Positions 18,883 through 50,166 of a DNA stretch of 64,000 nucleotides are shown here, piece by piece. The DNA is from Streptomyces griseochromogenes (GTDB lineage: Bacteria > Actinomycetota > Actinomycetes > Streptomycetales > Streptomycetaceae): assembly GCF_001542625.1 (NCBI RefSeq), contig NZ_CP016279.1:8742001-8806000 (forward strand). Reading direction: 5' to 3'. Position numbers and translations under genes: made by a program. The first letter of the stretch is position 1, and every line of letters begins with the position of its first letter. The notes under the pieces were generated by a model that saw nothing but the letters and a program-made list of their open reading frames with translations, ran no database searches and was not told where the DNA came from.

Positions 18883-20313
18883 GTGCAGGAGGAGATCAGG
18901 GACGGGGCGGCGGCCGCACGGCGGCTGGTCGCGGGTGCCGGGCTGCGGGACGTCCTCGACACCGGCGATCCGGCGGCCTGGCTGGCGCTGGACGAGGGCG
19001 CGCGGGCCGACGAGTGGTCCTTCCCCCCGTACGTCGTGCCCTCCTGGGAGGAGACGGACGGCGGGCGCTCGCTGACCGCCGTCCTGCGCGGCGACGGCCC
19101 GCTCACCGAGGGGCAGCTCGCGCTCGCCCTGTGTCACCGTGACGGCCGGATCCGGCACAAGGCGCTCGGGCGGGTCGCCGGGCTTCCGACGCTGCTGCCG
19201 CTGGTGGCGGTGCGGTGCACGGACTGGGCGCAGCCGGTGCGGGAACGGGCCAGGAAACGGCTCGCCGAGGCCCTGGACGCGCGGACGGCCGCATGGCTCG
19301 CCCCGCTGGTCCGGCGCCTCGGCGACCGCCACCGGGGCGACTTCGCCCTCGGTCTGCTCGGCGAGGTGCTGCGGCGGGCGCCCGGCGAAGGGCTGACCCC
19401 GCTCCTGGCCTCCCCCGACCGCCCCGTACGCCGTTTCGCGTACGGACTCGCCGTCGAGGAGGGGTTCCTCTCCCCGGCCGCGCTGGCCCGCGCGGCGGCC
19501 CGGGACGACGACGCCGTCGTCCAGAGCCTGTGCGCCGAGGCCGCCCTCGCCGCCGTGACGGACGAGGACGCGGAAGACGTGCTGGGGGCGCTGCTCGGTG
19601 CCCCGGGCCCGCGGGCCCGGTCCGCCGGAGTGACCGCGCTGCGCAGACTCCGGCGGCCGGAGCAGGCCGTCGGGTTTCTCGCGGACCGGTCGGCGCTGGT
19701 GCGGGCCTGTGCCCGGTATGTCGTGCGGCAGTACGGGACCGATCCGCTGCCCTGGTACCGCGAGCGGTGCGCCGGCCCCGGTGACCCGGCACTGCCGCCG
19801 GGTGCCGCCGTCGGGCTCGCGGAGTGCGGGACCCGCGCGGACGCCGCCCTGCTGTGGCCGCTGCTGGACCACCCGGCGCCCGGCGTCCGGGCGAGGGCGG
19901 TGGCCGGGCTGCGCCTGCTGGACGTGACGGACGTACCGCGGATGCGGCGGATGCTGGACGATCCGGCACCGGGGGTCGTCGGCGAGGCCACCCTCGCCCT
20001 GCTCCCCTCCGCCGCGCTGCTGCCGCAGGCGTGGCTGGCCGCCCGGCTGGCGCCGGAGCGGCCCCGGTGCGTGCGCGTGTCGGCGCAGCGGCTGCTGCAC
20101 GCGCACGGCGAGGTCGCACGGCTGCGGGCGGCGGTGACCCTGCTCGGCGACGCGGACGAGCGGCTGCGGACGCGGGCCGAGCTGACCGTGCGGCGGGCCC
20201 TGCGGTGGGGTGCGCGGAGCCGGTCCGGGCCCGAGGTCGCGGAGCTGCTCGCCGAGGCCCGCTCCCGCCTCGGCCGAGCGCCCCGGCGCACAGGAAGCCT
20301 TTGCTGCCCCTAG
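18883..20313 (+). CDS. HEAT-repeat protein
   Basis: A 476-residue soluble protein built of helical repeats of HEAT type, for example DGRIRHKALGRVAGLPTLLPLVAVRCTDWAQPVRERARKRLAEAL and HPAPGVRARAVAGLRLLDV, DDPAPGVVGEATLALLP. Such proteins act as scaffolds or, in some bacteria, as lyases and DNA glycosylases (AlkD); no catalytic signature was recognised here. GTG 18883 is preceded by aagggg. It overlaps no other real gene; htpX starts 74 bases downstream. Confidence 0.75.
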   Translation: MQEEIRDGAAAARRLVAGAGLRDVLDTGDPAAWLALDEGARADEWSFPPYVVPSWEETDGGRSLTAVLRGDGPLTEGQLALALCHRDGRIRHKALGRVAGLPTLLPLVAVRCTDWAQPVRERARKRLAEALDARTAAWLAPLVRRLGDRHRGDFALGLLGEVLRRAPGEGLTPLLASPDRPVRRFAYGLAVEEGFLSPAALARAAARDDDAVVQSLCAEAALAAVTDEDAEDVLGALLGAPGPRARSAGVTALRRLRRPEQAVGFLADRSALVRACARYVVRQYGTDPLPWYRERCAGPGDPALPPGAAVGLAECGTRADAALLWPLLDHPAPGVRARAVAGLRLLDVTDVPRMRRMLDDPAPGVVGEATLALLPSAALLPQAWLAARLAPERPRCVRVSAQRLLHAHGEVARLRAAVTLLGDADERLRTRAELTVRRALRWGARSRSGPEVAELLAEARSRLGRAPRRTGSLCCP

Positions 20314-20387
20314 ATCTGCGCGCGACCTCCTCATGGCGGTCCGCAGGTGCACACTGGACAGCGGGACGAGTGCGTGACTGCGGGGTG

Positions 20388-21314
20388 ATGCAGATGCAGA
20401 GCCGCTTCCAGAGCGATCGGCGGCTGACCGTGCGCATGACGGTCACGCTGTTCCTGCTCGGGCTGCTGTACGTGGCGTTCGTCGCCGCGTTGATCGTGTT
20501 GCTGAAGTCCTGGCTGCTGGTCGTCGTCCTGGTCGGCGCGATGTTCGTGGCGCAGTTCTGGTTCTCCGACCGGATCGCGATGTTCGCCATGCGCGGGCGG
20601 GTCGTGGAGCGGGAGGAGTATCCCGAGCTGCACGCGGTGGTCGACCGGCTGTGCGCGATCGCGGACATGCCGAAGCCGGTGGTCGCCGTGTCCGATATGG
20701 ACATGCCGAACGCGTTCGCGACCGGCCGCAATCCCGATCACGCCGTGGTCTGTGTGACCACGGGGCTGCTGCGGCGGCTGGAGCCCGCCGAGCTGGAAGG
20801 CGTGCTGGCGCACGAGCTGTCGCACGTCGCGCACAAGGACGTCGCCGTGATCACGGTCGCGTCGTTCCTCGGCGTGATCGCCGGGCTGATCGTGCGGTTC
20901 GCCTTCTACTCGCAGGTCTTCGGCGGGGGCCGCAGGGACCAGAACACCGCGATCGTGTTCGCCGGGGTGATGGGGGTATCGGCGGCCGTGTACGCGATCA
21001 GCTTCCTGCTGATCCGGGCCCTGTCCCGGTACCGGGAGCTGGCGGCCGACCGGGCCGCCGCGCACCTGACCGGCCGGCCCTCGGCGCTGGCGTCGGCGCT
21101 CACCAAGGTCTCCGGGGAGATCGCCCGGATCCCGACCAAGGACCTGCGCACGGCCCAGGCCTTCAACGCCTTCTACTTCACCCCCGCGACCGGCAAGGAG
21201 CCCGGCATCGAGCGGTTCTTCTCCACCCACCCGACGCTGGAACAGCGCCTGGAGCAGCTGGGCCGTATCTCCACGGAGCTGGGCGAGGCGGCCGCGCCGG
21301 GCAAGGCGGGCTGA
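20388..21314 (+). CDS. htpX: HtpX-like M48 membrane zinc metalloprotease
   Basis: A 308-residue membrane protease. Two N-terminal membrane helices (about 17-57), the zinc motif HELSH (in GVLAHELSHVAHKD, about residue 143-147), two further helices (about 156-178 and 185-208) and the third ligand Glu in RELAADRAA are all seen. Family members degrade misfolded membrane proteins under envelope stress. The start is at one of two near codons, ATG 20388 or ATG 20394 (GTG 20385 also in frame); the SD is not decisive. Its partner pspAB starts 3 bases after its stop, so the two are translationally linked. Confidence 0.9.
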   Translation: MQMQSRFQSDRRLTVRMTVTLFLLGLLYVAFVAALIVLLKSWLLVVVLVGAMFVAQFWFSDRIAMFAMRGRVVEREEYPELHAVVDRLCAIADMPKPVVAVSDMDMPNAFATGRNPDHAVVCVTTGLLRRLEPAELEGVLAHELSHVAHKDVAVITVASFLGVIAGLIVRFAFYSQVFGGGRRDQNTAIVFAGVMGVSAAVYAISFLLIRALSRYRELAADRAAAHLTGRPSALASALTKVSGEIARIPTKDLRTAQAFNAFYFTPATGKEPGIERFFSTHPTLEQRLEQLGRISTELGEAAAPGKAG

Positions 21315-21317
21315 ACC

Positions 21318-21902
21318 TTGGGGCTGCTGGACATCCTGCTGGGCCGTACGAAACCGGTCGCACCCGATCTGGACCAGCTGTTCGCGCTGCCGTCGGCGGC
21401 CGTGACGCTCCAGGCGGCGGCCGGGTTCACCCCGACCGGCAACGGCGCGGTGTGCTTCGCCACGGTCGAGGGCGCGGCCTTCGAGCAGACCCACCGGGAG
21501 GTCCAGGCGCTGCTCGACGCGGACGCCGAGCGCGCCGGTCCTCCGGTGGAAATGAGCCAGGACGGCTACGGCTACTCCTGGCTGCTCTCCCGGCGGTCCC
21601 CCGACCAGCTGCCCCAGCTGGTCAACGACCTGCACGCGGTGAACAGCTCGATGGAGGCCAACGGCTTCGGACCGCAGCTGCTGTGCTCCCTGGCCGCGTT
21701 CGCGGACGACACCGGCCGCATGCTGGCCCTCGTCTACCTCTACAAGCGCGGCACCTTCTATCCTTTCGCGCCGCTGCCCGGCACCGCCGATCGACGGGAC
21801 AGCGCGCTGGAGCTGCAGATGAAGGCGGCTCTCGCGAGCGACCTCAGGATCGAGCAGGACCTGAGCCGCTGGTTCCCGGTGTGGGGCGCCCCCGGCCTGT
21901 GA
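21318..21902 (+). CDS. pspAB: PspA-associated protein PspAB
   Basis: A 194-residue cytoplasmic protein of the PspAB family, beginning GLLDILLGRTKPVAPDLDQLFALPSAAVTL. Family members occur beside htpX or the PspA/Vipp1 envelope-stress system in actinobacteria; their activity is not well defined. Start is TTG at 21318, only 3 bases after the htpX stop; no other in-frame start gives the conserved N-terminus. The pair suggests a membrane-stress module. Confidence 0.88.
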   Translation: MGLLDILLGRTKPVAPDLDQLFALPSAAVTLQAAAGFTPTGNGAVCFATVEGAAFEQTHREVQALLDADAERAGPPVEMSQDGYGYSWLLSRRSPDQLPQLVNDLHAVNSSMEANGFGPQLLCSLAAFADDTGRMLALVYLYKRGTFYPFAPLPGTADRRDSALELQMKAALASDLRIEQDLSRWFPVWGAPGL

Positions 21903-21921: not shown

Positions 21922-22194
21922 TCACCTGCTCTTCTCCCGCTCCTGGCGCCGGGCCTCGAAGGGGCGCTCGCGGCGGTAGCGGCGCTCCCACTTGGCCTGG
22001 CGGTCCCGGCGCTCGCGGTAGGCCCGGTAGGAGTCGGGCGGCGTGCCCGAACCGGCCGGCGGGGCCGCGCCGGGCGAGCCCCGACCGTGCTTCACGTACA
22101 GATAGAGCAGCGCGGCGGCGGCGAGCCACCAGATGTGGTTTCCGAATCCGAGAATCACCAGGACGACGGTCCCGGCGACGACGATGCCAGTCAT
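21922..22194 (-). CDS. Small hypothetical membrane protein
   Basis: A 90-residue protein with an N-terminal double hydrophobic region (about 1-35, MTGIVVAGTVVLVILGFGN and HIWWLAAAALLYLYV) and a strongly charged C-terminal helix (ERRDRQAKWERRYRRERPFEARRQEREKSR). The ATG at 22194 is preceded by ggaggt-type sequence (gtccgtca... on the coding strand, aggtccgtc). Function unknown; convergent with pspAB, 19 bases apart. Confidence 0.6.
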   Translation of the reverse strand: MTGIVVAGTVVLVILGFGNHIWWLAAAALLYLYVKHGRGSPGAAPPAGSGTPPDSYRAYRERRDRQAKWERRYRRERPFEARRQEREKSR

Positions 22195-22329: not shown

Positions 22330-23997
22330 ATGGCACGTATGAGCGAACTCCCGGGTCTCCCTTGCGAGTACGACGCGATCACGCACATGTACGACGGTGA
22401 GCGGCTCAGCGCGGTGAGGGCCGGCCCGCGCGGACGGGCGACCGCCGTCCTCCTGCACGGGGCCGGCAACGGCAGCAAGGAACGGCTGCTGCCGCTGCTC
22501 GCCGAGTTCGCCGCGCACGGCTGCCACGCCCTGGCTCTCGACTTCTCCGGACACGGGGAAAGCACCGGAGAGCTCTCGGAGTTGAGCCTGCGGCGCCGGT
22601 TCGAGCAGGCGGCGGCGGTGATCGACGCGCAGGCTCCGGCCCGCGACCCGCTGGTCCTGGTGGGGTTCAGCATGAGCGGACAGACGGTGGCGGACCTCGC
22701 CCGCCACTACGGACAGCGGGTGGCGGCCGTGGGCCTGTGCGCACCCGCCGTCTACGCACCCCAGGCCTGGGACGTGCCCTTCGGTGACGGCCGGGGCCGG
22801 TTCAGCGAGATCATCCGCACCCCCGGCAGCTGGCGCGACTCCCCGGCCCTGGAGGTGCTGCGGGCGTACGAGGGCCGGGCGGTGCTGGCGGTGCCGGGCA
22901 CGGACGAGGTCATCCCGCCGGAGGTGACCGAGGCCGTACAGGAGGCACTGGCGGCCCGCGCCCAGTACACGCGCTTCGAACTCCCGGACGCCGAGCACCG
23001 GTTGGGGCTCTGGTTCCGCGACCACGCCGGGGACCGGCGGGAGTTCGCCGCAGCCCTGCTCGGCGGGCTGGAGGAAGCGGGCTGGGCGGCGACACGGCGC
23101 TGGGTGGCCGAGCGGCTTCCGCGGGGCCGTACGGTCGCCGGCTCCCAGCGGCTTGCCGGGGGCTGGTCCTCCCAGATGCGCGGGCTCACCCTCGACGACG
23201 GCGAGGAGCTGGTGCTGCGCACCTTCGTGAAGCCGTTCTTCCGCCGGCACGCCCTGGGCCTGCTGTCCCGGGAGGCAGCCGTCCTCGGTCTGCTCGCGGG
23301 GCAGGAGGGCATCCCGGCACCGGCTCTGGTCGCCGTGGACGCCACCGGCGACCACTGCGACCACCCCTCGCTGCTGATGACCCGGCTGCCGGGCCTGGTG
23401 CGGGTGGACGAGGAGGACCGGGAGGCGCTGGACCGGCGTCTGGACCTGCTCGCCGCCCAGCTGGTCCGGATCCACGCGGTCGAGCCCGAGGACCGTCCGC
23501 GCACCTATCAGGCGTGGACGTCGGCGGAACGGCTGCGCACCCCGGACGGCGGGATGTGGGCACGGGCGGTGGACGTGATCCGCCGCGACCCGCCGCCGTA
23601 CCGGGGCCGCTTCCTGCACCGGGACTACCACCCCGGGAACGTGCTGTTCACGGGTGCCGGGGACGGGCTGCGGGTGAGCGGGGTCGTCGACTGGGTGGAG
23701 ACCTCGTGGGGGCCGGCCGACCTCGACGTCGCCCACTGCTCGACGGCGCTCGCCCTGTTGCACGGCCCGGCGCGGGGGCTCGCCTTCCGGGACCGGTACG
23801 AGGCGCGGGGCGGCCAGGGCCTGGCGGACGGGCCGGACCACCTCTACTGGCGGCTGCTGGACGCCCTGGCCTACTTTCCCGACGCCGGGAAACTGGCCCG
23901 GCCGTGGCGCGAGCTGGGCCGTACGGATCTGACACCGCGGGTGATGCGCGAGCGGCTGGAGGCGTACGTGGGCGGGCTGCTGGAGCGGTACGCCTGA
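22330..23997 (+). CDS. Fusion of alpha/beta-hydrolase and aminoglycoside-phosphotransferase-like kinase domains
   Basis: A 555-residue two-domain protein. Residues about 1-255 are an alpha/beta hydrolase with a complete triad: nucleophile Ser in GFSMSG (about 113-118), acid Asp in VPGTDEVIP (about 198) and His in DAEHRLG (about 221). Residues about 265-545 are an APH/choline-kinase-like domain with the catalytic loop HRDYHPGNVLF (about 431-441) and the metal-binding VVDWVET (about 456-462). The usual ATP-binding Lys of the N-lobe appears to be Arg (ELVLRTFVKPF). No frameshift is present in between. ATG 22330 or 22339 could both start; there is no strong SD. Function unknown; the combination suggests phosphorylation and deacylation of the same small molecule. 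Confidence 0.82.
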   Translation: MARMSELPGLPCEYDAITHMYDGERLSAVRAGPRGRATAVLLHGAGNGSKERLLPLLAEFAAHGCHALALDFSGHGESTGELSELSLRRRFEQAAAVIDAQAPARDPLVLVGFSMSGQTVADLARHYGQRVAAVGLCAPAVYAPQAWDVPFGDGRGRFSEIIRTPGSWRDSPALEVLRAYEGRAVLAVPGTDEVIPPEVTEAVQEALAARAQYTRFELPDAEHRLGLWFRDHAGDRREFAAALLGGLEEAGWAATRRWVAERLPRGRTVAGSQRLAGGWSSQMRGLTLDDGEELVLRTFVKPFFRRHALGLLSREAAVLGLLAGQEGIPAPALVAVDATGDHCDHPSLLMTRLPGLVRVDEEDREALDRRLDLLAAQLVRIHAVEPEDRPRTYQAWTSAERLRTPDGGMWARAVDVIRRDPPPYRGRFLHRDYHPGNVLFTGAGDGLRVSGVVDWVETSWGPADLDVAHCSTALALLHGPARGLAFRDRYEARGGQGLADGPDHLYWRLLDALAYFPDAGKLARPWRELGRTDLTPRVMRERLEAYVGGLLERYA

Positions 23998-24013: not shown

Positions 24014-25408
24014 TCACACCCCCGGCTCCGCCGTCACCACGCCCGCCCCGATGGCCGCGCCGAGGGCCGCGTGGTCGGCGGCGGTCTGGGCGGCGTAGGC
24101 GAGGGCGAAGTCGGCGACGGCGCGGTCGAAGGTGTCGGCGCCGCCGAGGTAGGCGGCGATGGCGATGCGGTCGCCGGAGCGGGCGTGGGCGCGGGCCAGG
24201 GTGGTGCCGCACAGCCGGGCGTAGGCGAGCAGGTCGGCCGGGTCCATGCCGGCGACCTCGGCGGAGCCCTTCGTGTCGCGCAGCCTGCGCCAGTAGAAGG
24301 CGCGGCCCTGGGGTCCGCTCATCCAGCCGAGGAAGATGTCGGTGGCGGACTGCAGCAGCCGCTGCCCGGCGACCACCCGGTGCCCGGGATGGACGTACGG
24401 CCCGCTCGGCAGATGTTCCTCCAGCACCGACGTCCGTGCCTCCTTGATCTGCAGGAACAGCAGGTCGTCGGTGTCCCGCCCGGTGAGCAGCACGATGAAG
24501 CAGCGCAGGCCGACGCTGCCGATACCGACGATCTTGCGGGCGGCGTCGGTGAACCGGTAGCGGTCCAGGAGATGGCGGCGCTCCTCGGGGAGGGTGGAGC
24601 GGTAGTCGCTGAAGGTCTTGCGCAGGGAGGCCATGTCCGGGGCGCCGGCGGGTTCCAGGAGCGGCGGGTCGTGGATGATCCGGCGCCGCCCGTCGACCAG
24701 CTCCGTCAGCTTGCCGTAGGCCTGGAGGCTGGTGCGGCGGCGGGTCCGGGTGAGGCTGGATTCCAGGCGGCGCCTGTGGCGGGCGGAGTGGACGAGGGGC
24801 AGCAGACGGTCGCCGTCGACCTGTTCGTACCAGACGGCCAGCTCTCCGAGTCCGGCCAGCCGGCGCATCGCGGTGCGGTACCCGGTGACGGCCGCCTGGG
24901 CCGCGGCTCGCATCTTGGCACCGCTGTGGCCGTTCTCCCTCGCGGCCACCGCCACACTGGCCGCGAGCCGCTTGACGTCCCATTCGAAGGGCCCGGGAAA
25001 GGTCTCGTCGAAGTCGTTCAGGTCGAAGAGCGGGGTGCGTCCCGGGGAGGCGTAGAGCCCGAAGTTCAGCAGGTGGGCGTCGCCGCACAGCTGCACCGTG
25101 AGCCCGGTGTGGGGCTGGACGGCCAGGTCGGCGGCCATCACCGCGGTGGCACCGCGCAGGAAGGCCAGCGGCGAGGCGGACATCCGTCCGTAACGTATCG
25201 GCAGCAGCTCGGGAAGCCGGTCGCGGCCCTGTCGCTCCAGTACGGCCACGGGGTCGGGCCGGTCGGCGGACGGGATCCACAAGGCGTGTACGGAGCGGGG
25301 GACCTTCTTGCGGGCCTGTCTGCCGCACTGGGCGCGGGCCTCGGGGGTGCCGCGCGGAGGACGGGCCTCGGGAGTGGCACGCCGGGGGCGGACCTCGGTC
25401 ATGCTCAT
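24014..25408 (-). CDS. DUF2252 protein
   Basis: A 464-residue protein of the DUF2252 family: ATVAVMAADLAVQPHTGLTVQLCGDAHLLNFGLYASPG with the signature GDAHLLNFG, then FDLNDFDETFPGPFEWDVKRLAAS. These segments resemble the HxDxxxxN and DFD sites of APH-type kinases, so a kinase-like fold is possible; activity is not known. The N-terminus (about 1-30) is basic and repetitive (TPEARPPRGTPEARAQ). The ATG at 25408 has an aaggagg site 8 bases upstream, which decides it over ATG 25402. It is convergent with the fusion gene 16 bases away, and divergent from the winged-helix gene. Confidence 0.88.
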   Translation of the reverse strand: MSMTEVRPRRATPEARPPRGTPEARAQCGRQARKKVPRSVHALWIPSADRPDPVAVLERQGRDRLPELLPIRYGRMSASPLAFLRGATAVMAADLAVQPHTGLTVQLCGDAHLLNFGLYASPGRTPLFDLNDFDETFPGPFEWDVKRLAASVAVAARENGHSGAKMRAAAQAAVTGYRTAMRRLAGLGELAVWYEQVDGDRLLPLVHSARHRRRLESSLTRTRRRTSLQAYGKLTELVDGRRRIIHDPPLLEPAGAPDMASLRKTFSDYRSTLPEERRHLLDRYRFTDAARKIVGIGSVGLRCFIVLLTGRDTDDLLFLQIKEARTSVLEEHLPSGPYVHPGHRVVAGQRLLQSATDIFLGWMSGPQGRAFYWRRLRDTKGSAEVAGMDPADLLAYARLCGTTLARAHARSGDRIAIAAYLGGADTFDRAVADFALAYAAQTAADHAALGAAIGAGVVTAEPGV

Positions 25409-44403: not shown

Positions 44404-49812
<5,409 letters not shown>

Positions 49813-50166
49813 AGGCGGTAACTCCTTGCGATTACGGCTCTCTTGGGTCCGACCCCGGCGCGACCGTATCCCTAACGAAAGGTTTACAGCAAGGGTCTTG
49901 AAACTCACGGCAAGAACTTTCACCACGTTCTTTGGCGTGCCCTCTCAACAGGTCCACTCTCACCAGTGCTTAGCCGGTGGAGGTCTGGGCCGCACATCCC
50001 GGACTCGGCCCCGGCCCCGGACGCCACCGCAAGCCCTCGCCATGACACGAGGACGCTTCCGCGCGTCGGACCGTCGTGACCTGGGAGTCCGGGACGAACC
50101 GCTCGTACACGACGGGCGGTTCGTCCGGCTGCACGACGAGCAACACCTGGAAGTAGTCTCCCCGGC
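49813..50166. other. 354-bp region between the two secreted amylase genes
   Basis: Contains the promoter of the amylopullulanase and candidate MalR half-sites (49889-49914). On the minus strand from 50166 down to about 50035, there is a coding-like frame (see finding), but no confident gene. Confidence 0.5.
49889..49914 (-). promoter_or_regulatory. MalR-type half-sites before the amylopullulanase gene
   Basis: gcaag (49889-49893), cttg (49897-49900) and caag (49911-49914) form a dyad tcttg-n10-caaga-like pattern, 77-102 bases before the GTG. It resembles the sites near malE and malR; role inferred. Confidence 0.5.

Follow-up and report, generated by a model that had tools for sequence, protein, structure and literature searches.

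A Streptomyces protein joining an alpha/beta hydrolase to an APH-fold kinase, and the probable repeated loss of its kinase half

AAC(6')-Ie/APH(2'')-Ia is a bifunctional resistance enzyme composed of an acetyltransferase and an APH-fold kinase; PDB entry 4ork, found in the structure list of the kinase studied here, is presumably its kinase domain. In ACAD10 and ACAD11, an APH-like kinase is reported to be joined to an acyl-CoA dehydrogenase, the enzyme that uses the kinase product, and ACAD10 also has a HAD domain that restrains the kinase (PMC11342911). We analyzed a gene located in a 64,000-nucleotide stretch of Streptomyces griseochromogenes DNA (hereafter, the window), whose product resembles both systems in having an APH-fold kinase as one of two enzymes in a single chain. 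Its partner domain is an alpha/beta hydrolase, unlike the acetyltransferase of AAC(6')-Ie/APH(2'')-Ia, which is a known resistance gene, and unlike the partners in ACAD10/ACAD11, from which it also differs in being bacterial. No ACAD or HAD profile matched the window protein at E 0.001.

Taken separately, the two halves have distant relatives of known structure. The fold neighbors of the hydrolase include S33 and cinnamoyl-feruloyl esterases (PDB 3pf8, 7xrh, and 7wwh; 18–24% identity), from which it differs in an elbow that ends in Ser rather than Gly and in the attached C-terminal kinase, as well as the macrolide esterase EstT. For the kinase, the 50 matches listed contain APH(2''), APH(3'), homoserine kinase, Rv3168, corramycin kinase, and PsiK at 9–23% identity; in contrast to these small-molecule kinases, the window kinase is joined to a hydrolase. 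Its fold neighbors, among them APH, MPH-E, and corramycin kinase, were nearly tied and therefore did not pick out a substrate class. The curated NCBIfam equivalog model of APH(3'), NF033068, scored 27.4 bits with the whole protein and 30.1 bits with the kinase half, against a cut-off of 205. A sequence search of the PDB with the kinase half alone gave no match at E 1, and a profile search gave 13 distant matches, of which viomycin kinase, 3dxp, and 1nd4 were the best. Much closer are standalone kinases of the Streptomycetaceae (e.g., L129 and L131), 59–68% identical to the fused kinase and with the same motifs, which differ from the fusion in lacking a hydrolase and in their variable contexts.

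The first-pass annotation of the window had proposed a one-chain fusion in which both halves keep their catalytic residues, and profile searches bore this out. The translated frame contained no internal stop (Table 1), and a 100%-identical database copy, P0002, has 552 amino acids. Matches above the Pfam cut-offs were obtained for Hydrolase_4 (PF12146; residues 36–146, E 1.7e-12, 47.6 bits, cut-off 27), Abhydrolase_1 (PF00561; 40–148, E 5.3e-09, 36.5 bits, cut-off 25.8), Abhydrolase_6 (PF12697; 40–264, E 5.8e-06, 27.6 bits, cut-off 26.3), and APH (PF01636; 273–497, E 8.7e-30, 104.7 bits, cut-off 23.2). We then counted residues over the covering rows of a 100-row alignment of fused, hydrolase-only, and kinase-only sequences. 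No other letter occurred at the proposed triad or at Asp432 (82/82), Asn437 (82/82), and Asp454 (83/83) of the kinase. The Ser-Asp-His triad, placed by motif and not by coordinates, is in canonical order. A strict G-x-S-x-G elbow is absent in the window hydrolase, where a small residue replaces the last Gly (G-F-S-M-S), a substitution that the alpha/beta hydrolase superfamily tolerates. The Arg that had been singled out at the position of the ATP-binding Lys is present as Arg297, but it is not special to the fusion: it is invariant in a kinase alignment of 18 rows (the window and 17 kinase-only sequences) and is thus a trait of the kinase family.

Table 1 Features of the fusion gene and its surroundings (window coordinates)
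Feature	Position	Strand	Remark
Hydrolase-APH kinase fusion gene	22330..23997	+	555 aa, single frame
Hydrolase domain, residues ~14-245	22369..23064	+	
APH-fold kinase domain, residues ~253-554	23086..23991	+	
Ser114, proposed nucleophile, elbow G-F-S-M-S	22669..22671	+	S in 97/97 covering rows
Asp192, proposed triad acid	22903..22905	+	D in 98/98 covering rows
His223, proposed triad base	22996..22998	+	H in 97/97 covering rows
Gln212, residue tracking kinase presence	22963..22965	+	Fused 93/98, kinase-less 6/38
Arg297 at ATP-lysine position	23218..23220	+	R in 84/84 covering rows and 18/18 kinase-alignment rows
Arg305, candidate fusion-specific kinase residue, lead only	23242..23244	+	Fused 98/98; standalone 1/11, 0/8
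Catalytic loop HRDYHPGN (Asp432, Asn437)	23617..23640	+	
VVDWVET with metal-binding Asp454	23683..23703	+	
PspAB, conserved upstream neighbor	21318..21902	+	PF22742, E 1.2e-76; 65/80 loci
M48 peptidase, conserved upstream neighbor	19824..21314	+	PF01435; 65/80 loci
DUF2252 gene, convergent with fusion, not part of finding	24014..25408	-	PF10009, E 2e-139; 25/80 loci
Divergent 90-aa ORF, not part of enzyme	21922..22194	-	37/80 fusion loci

A structure model of the two-domain protein (pLDDT 92, pTM 0.86) has one helix ending at residue 244 and the next beginning at 253, with a linker of ~8 residues between them. By our own Nei–Gojobori script, dN/dS was 0.15–0.41 for the hydrolase half in 7/7 fused pairs and 0.14–0.37 for the kinase half in 6/7; the seventh value (L031/L058, 1.33) was disregarded on account of the in-frame stop in L031. 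Three pairs of kinase-less hydrolases gave 0.33–0.52. Sequence comparison thus establishes one frame with two complete domains and two conserved catalytic sets, encoded as one chain across many Streptomyces species.

Both domains were present in 120 of the 120 matches listed, out of 2297 database relatives (one being the window's own), and every organism named among them was a Streptomyces; the pairing of the domains is thus no chance event. A second search, started from a divergent fused protein, likewise returned two-domain proteins in 120 of the 120 matches listed. From 300 confirmed genome stretches, 80 were kept as loci, all Streptomyces by title, and the fusion was uninterrupted in 78. 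Our automatic intactness filter passed 74 and flagged six rows: in L037, L076, L077, and L081, an ORF of 544–561 amino acids is intact and the stop lies ahead of it, and L031 and L093 are truly interrupted. L092 was counted as intact, though its match ends at residue 536. Two doubts raised at the outset, that orthologs might be separate genes joined here by a frameshift and that homologs might have lost their catalytic residues, can now be answered: the one-frame loci rule out a frameshift or assembly artifact, the residues are kept in all covering homolog rows, and the architecture stands.

Among the genomes sampled, the fusion was confined to the genus Streptomyces. An order-wide sample contained the fused protein in 26/197 genomes, all Streptomyces (counting G026, whose single frame of 586 residues was reported in two pieces). 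A family sample of 297 genomes from 17 genera gave full-length matches in Streptomyces only, the other genera having one half or both halves apart. There was no fusion outside Streptomyces in a class sample of 296 genomes or in a phylum sample of 396 genomes searched with the divergent query; scoring in all four samples covered the best few candidates of each genome. Within the genus, a draw of 307 Streptomyces genomes yielded 41 fused (including L207 and L213), 26 kinase-less, and 2 interrupted copies, and 238 genomes without a hydrolase match at E 1e-70; 12 genomes were classed from the earlier samples. The first-pass annotation had taken the fusion to be undescribed. We found no publication describing a hydrolase–APH kinase fusion in the open-licence literature, most subscription journals being outside reach, and as far as these searches reached, the two-enzyme protein is undescribed in the main antibiotic-producing genus. 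The architecture itself, however, is already named automatically in databases, for example as 'pimeloyl-ACP methyl ester carboxylesterase/aminoglycoside phosphotransferase (APT) family kinase'.

The fused gene sits downstream of M48 and PspAB genes in a recurrent site, where DUF2252 or AlkZ-like genes adjoin variably; glnA was found in 57 and AlkZ-like genes in 45 of the 80 loci, some of which end at contig ends. The DUF2252 gene had been noted for kinase-like motifs. This family is indeed listed among the Pfam families of the protein-kinase clan (PMC9758233), but its low recurrence among the fusion loci (Table 1) led us to reject it as a functional partner. A shared operon was also rejected, as the fusion is divergent from the small ORF and convergent with DUF2252. 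The small ORF, which starts 135 bp from the fusion start, looks by eye membrane-like at its start and strongly basic at its tail and lies on the strand opposite to the fusion in each of the 37 loci that have it. Pattern scans for sigma-70 promoters and terminators at the fusion site gave no match, no operon partner hinting at a pathway appeared among the 80 loci, and the PADLOC anti-phage defense models matched 0 families at E 0.001. None of PspAB, M48, glnA, AlkZ-like, and DUF2252 was seen in 14/80 loci (L031, L035, L036, L039, L045, L053, L058, L061, L064, L066, L075, L090, L094, and L097), and these fused copies are therefore probably at a second place in the genome. A fused copy also occurs on three Streptomyces plasmid records of ~1.2 Mb (H1–H3).

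Some Streptomyces have the hydrolase alone at the same site, most likely through loss of the kinase and not through any frameshift in the window. In the first 15 loci of this kind, the frame ends at the junction of the domains, between residues 245 and 306 (window numbering), with no kinase behind the hydrolase at E 1e-3. At least one core-site neighbor accompanied 35 of 38 kinase-less rows, and none accompanied L182, L183, and L214. A 63-row tree with an unsettled bootstrap, in which standalone hydrolases from elsewhere and from other genera count among the not-fused rows, required 12 switches between the fused and the not-fused state, of which at least 9 were forced by well-supported branches; for the kinase-less Streptomyces rows alone, 10 changes were needed and at least 8 were forced. 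A larger, quicker tree gave 22 changes. The trees have no sure root, and gain and loss are indistinguishable from them alone. In the kinase tree, the fused kinases form one group of 33 rows with support 99, comprising 31 fused rows, L125, and L119 (a fused gene truncated where its contig ends); L126, which is divergent, falls in an open fork. Because this single group is supported and repeated rejoining at the same junction is unlikely, we favor one fusion followed by several losses: the kinase was probably joined once within Streptomyces and then deleted in several lineages.

The reverse case, a retained kinase with the hydrolase gone, occurred in one genome (L125 in G127). No other kinase-only copy was seen at the core site; this locus has glnA and the divergent small ORF but yielded no match to the hydrolase, PspAB, or M48. 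L158 (G841), from a different genus of the same family, has a standalone hydrolase with the C-terminal remnant of a kinase behind it on the same strand, corresponding to residues 233–302 of the kinase half at 67% identity and hinting that the fusion was once present in that genus or was transferred. Interrupted copies of the fusion are L031, L093, L124, L127, L173, and L219.

Because the gene occurs at one chromosomal site both with its kinase and without it, what the second domain contributes can readily be compared, and this comparison points to a single residue, Gln212, at the likely contact surface. Gln212 was first picked by scanning hydrolase columns, being present in 82/85 fused rows, 2/15 kinase-less rows at the site, and 0/12 standalone hydrolases from elsewhere. 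Since it had been chosen by a scan, we fixed the prediction beforehand and drew new genomes. Leaving out 12 already sampled genomes from the 69 with a match gave 57 new loci (30 fused, 23 kinase-less, and 4 other), and 17 of the 30 fused loci did not enter the count because their hydrolase was at least 98.5% identical to a row already used. In these held-out genomes, Gln was found in 11/13 fused and 4/23 kinase-less copies (Fisher p 0.0002, ignoring kinship), and in 28/30 new fused copies with the 17 near-identical ones included. The 4 other loci all have Gln; L207 and L213 match the intact fused L081 and L077, and L173 and L219 are interrupted. In the combined counts (Table 1), where the 98 fused rows include the interrupted L031 and L093, the frequency difference was 0.79, compared with 0.31 for the runner-up of 228 columns, E238, which lies nearer the junction. 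Kinase-less copies mostly have Arg at this position (22/38).

Each kinase-less row was also paired with its most similar unused fused row. Of the 38 pairs obtained, 31 had Gln on the fused side only, 6 on both, 1 on neither, and 0 in the reversed arrangement; among the 11 pairs of at least 80% identity, Gln was missing only in the kinase-less member in 8, kept by both in 3, and reversed in 0. Well-supported branches provided only 6 independent pairs, with which the sign test was not significant (median p 0.125) and cannot reach significance. The simplest reading is that Gln212 is a candidate contact at the hydrolase–kinase interface, a surface that would be freed once the kinase is gone, and its tracking, together with the confident two-domain model (pTM 0.86), argues for real packing. 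Hitch-hiking by recombination could produce such a pattern without any contact, but the tracking should in that case strengthen toward the junction, and E238 at 0.31 tracks less than Gln212 at 0.79, which makes this alternative less likely. On the kinase side, Arg305 is present in every fused row and absent in 18/19 standalone kinase rows (from the 59–68% group and a 53% group); we treat it as a lead only for the partner residue, because the standalone kinases represent few clades and the kinase-only L125 keeps Arg305. Fused copies without Gln212 are L074, L126, L157, L171, and L223 (5/98). L171 and L223 are divergent fused proteins with Arg at 212, whose hydrolases share 71% and 62% identity with the closest row of the earlier set; they perhaps represent an older branch in which the interface differs.

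A fusion is usually a hint that the reactions of its two parts are linked. However, a Rosetta-stone relationship between the unfused halves was unsupported: they occurred together in 8/235 genomes against 6.7 expected (p 0.35), and a fixed two-step pathway is therefore unproven. No close kinase was found in 25/33 genomes with an unfused hydrolase, and no close hydrolase in 40/48 genomes with an unfused close kinase, so that each half can be useful alone. Among the standalone kinases, of which L129 and L139 have a stretch in common, no neighbor family recurred in more than 3/19 loci, and no theme emerged from the Pfam names of a few neighbors. Standalone kinases of the same family, with 49–59% identity, also occur on Streptomyces plasmids.

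Our best explanation, which we put forward tentatively and at somewhat less than even odds, is a Streptomyces enzyme of two activities, one of which cuts an ester or lactone while the other then adds a phosphate to a hydroxyl of the product or of a related compound. Alcohols are what an esterase or lactonase sets free and what APH-fold kinases act on, which would make cutting before phosphorylation the natural order. The predicted enzyme would be cytosolic: its serine hydrolase would act on a small molecule that carries an ester, a lactone, or a bond of similar type, and the APH-fold kinase, packed behind it across the short linker, would phosphorylate a hydroxyl of what is released, or of a related compound, so that both domains together might process or detoxify a hydroxylated metabolite. 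The hydrolase would be the core activity and the kinase a second module touching it near Gln212, deleted again in lineages that need only the first step. The conserved sites, the specific packing, the dN/dS below 1, and the ACAD10/11 precedent (PMC11342911) support this order; the lack of co-occurrence of the unfused halves (8/235 against 6.7) and the evident usefulness of the hydrolase alone speak against it. Two independent inactivating activities joined for joint expression only, as in AAC(6')-APH(2''), and acting on the same or different xenobiotics, possibly antibiotics, are a strong competitor, although we consider them less probable. The accessory behavior of the standalone kinases, with their variable contexts and plasmid copies, the fold neighbors APH, MPH-E, corramycin kinase, and EstT, and again the missing co-occurrence of the halves are consistent with such a pair, and a role in antibiotic resistance is possible; yet the fused gene is mostly at a stable site (PspAB in 65/80), the curated APH(3') model stays far below its cut-off, and the tracking of the kinase by Gln212 argues for specific packing over a mere tether.

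The same tracking, with one hydrolase position changing with the kinase, would also suit a regulatory pair in which one domain restrains or senses for the other, the kinase being mainly a modulator of the hydrolase. The hydrolase is retained without the kinase in many relatives, and the HAD domain of ACAD10 sets a precedent (PMC11342911). We nevertheless regard this as improbable: fused copies keep every catalytic residue of the kinase, and a kinase-only derivative, L125, exists at the same site, for which reasons the kinase looks like a self-standing enzyme. Least probable is a neutral joining without joint function that persists and is now decaying. It would account for the interrupted copies and for the 238/307 Streptomyces genomes without a hydrolase match, but it sits poorly with 78/80 intact loci, dN/dS below 1 in both halves, and invariant active sites. 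To return to the two-activity enzyme, a bolder form of it, to which we give a low probability, makes the kinase a removable second-step or control module, lost on separate branches, with each older loss relaxing Gln212; the enzyme may then open and phosphorylate a Streptomyces signaling or defense metabolite, for example a lactone, a substrate class that is speculation. Both families were already known, and the most interesting part is the repeated kinase loss with its tracking residue.

One source names a fused protein, P0216, 'Multifunctional-autoprocessing repeats-in-toxin'. This name is most likely a mis-transfer from distant hydrolase similarity, and no other sign of a toxin was seen in the fusion proteins analyzed here. 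Elsewhere in the window, a simple gene finder reported a long open frame of 1840 residues at 44404–49926 on the minus strand.
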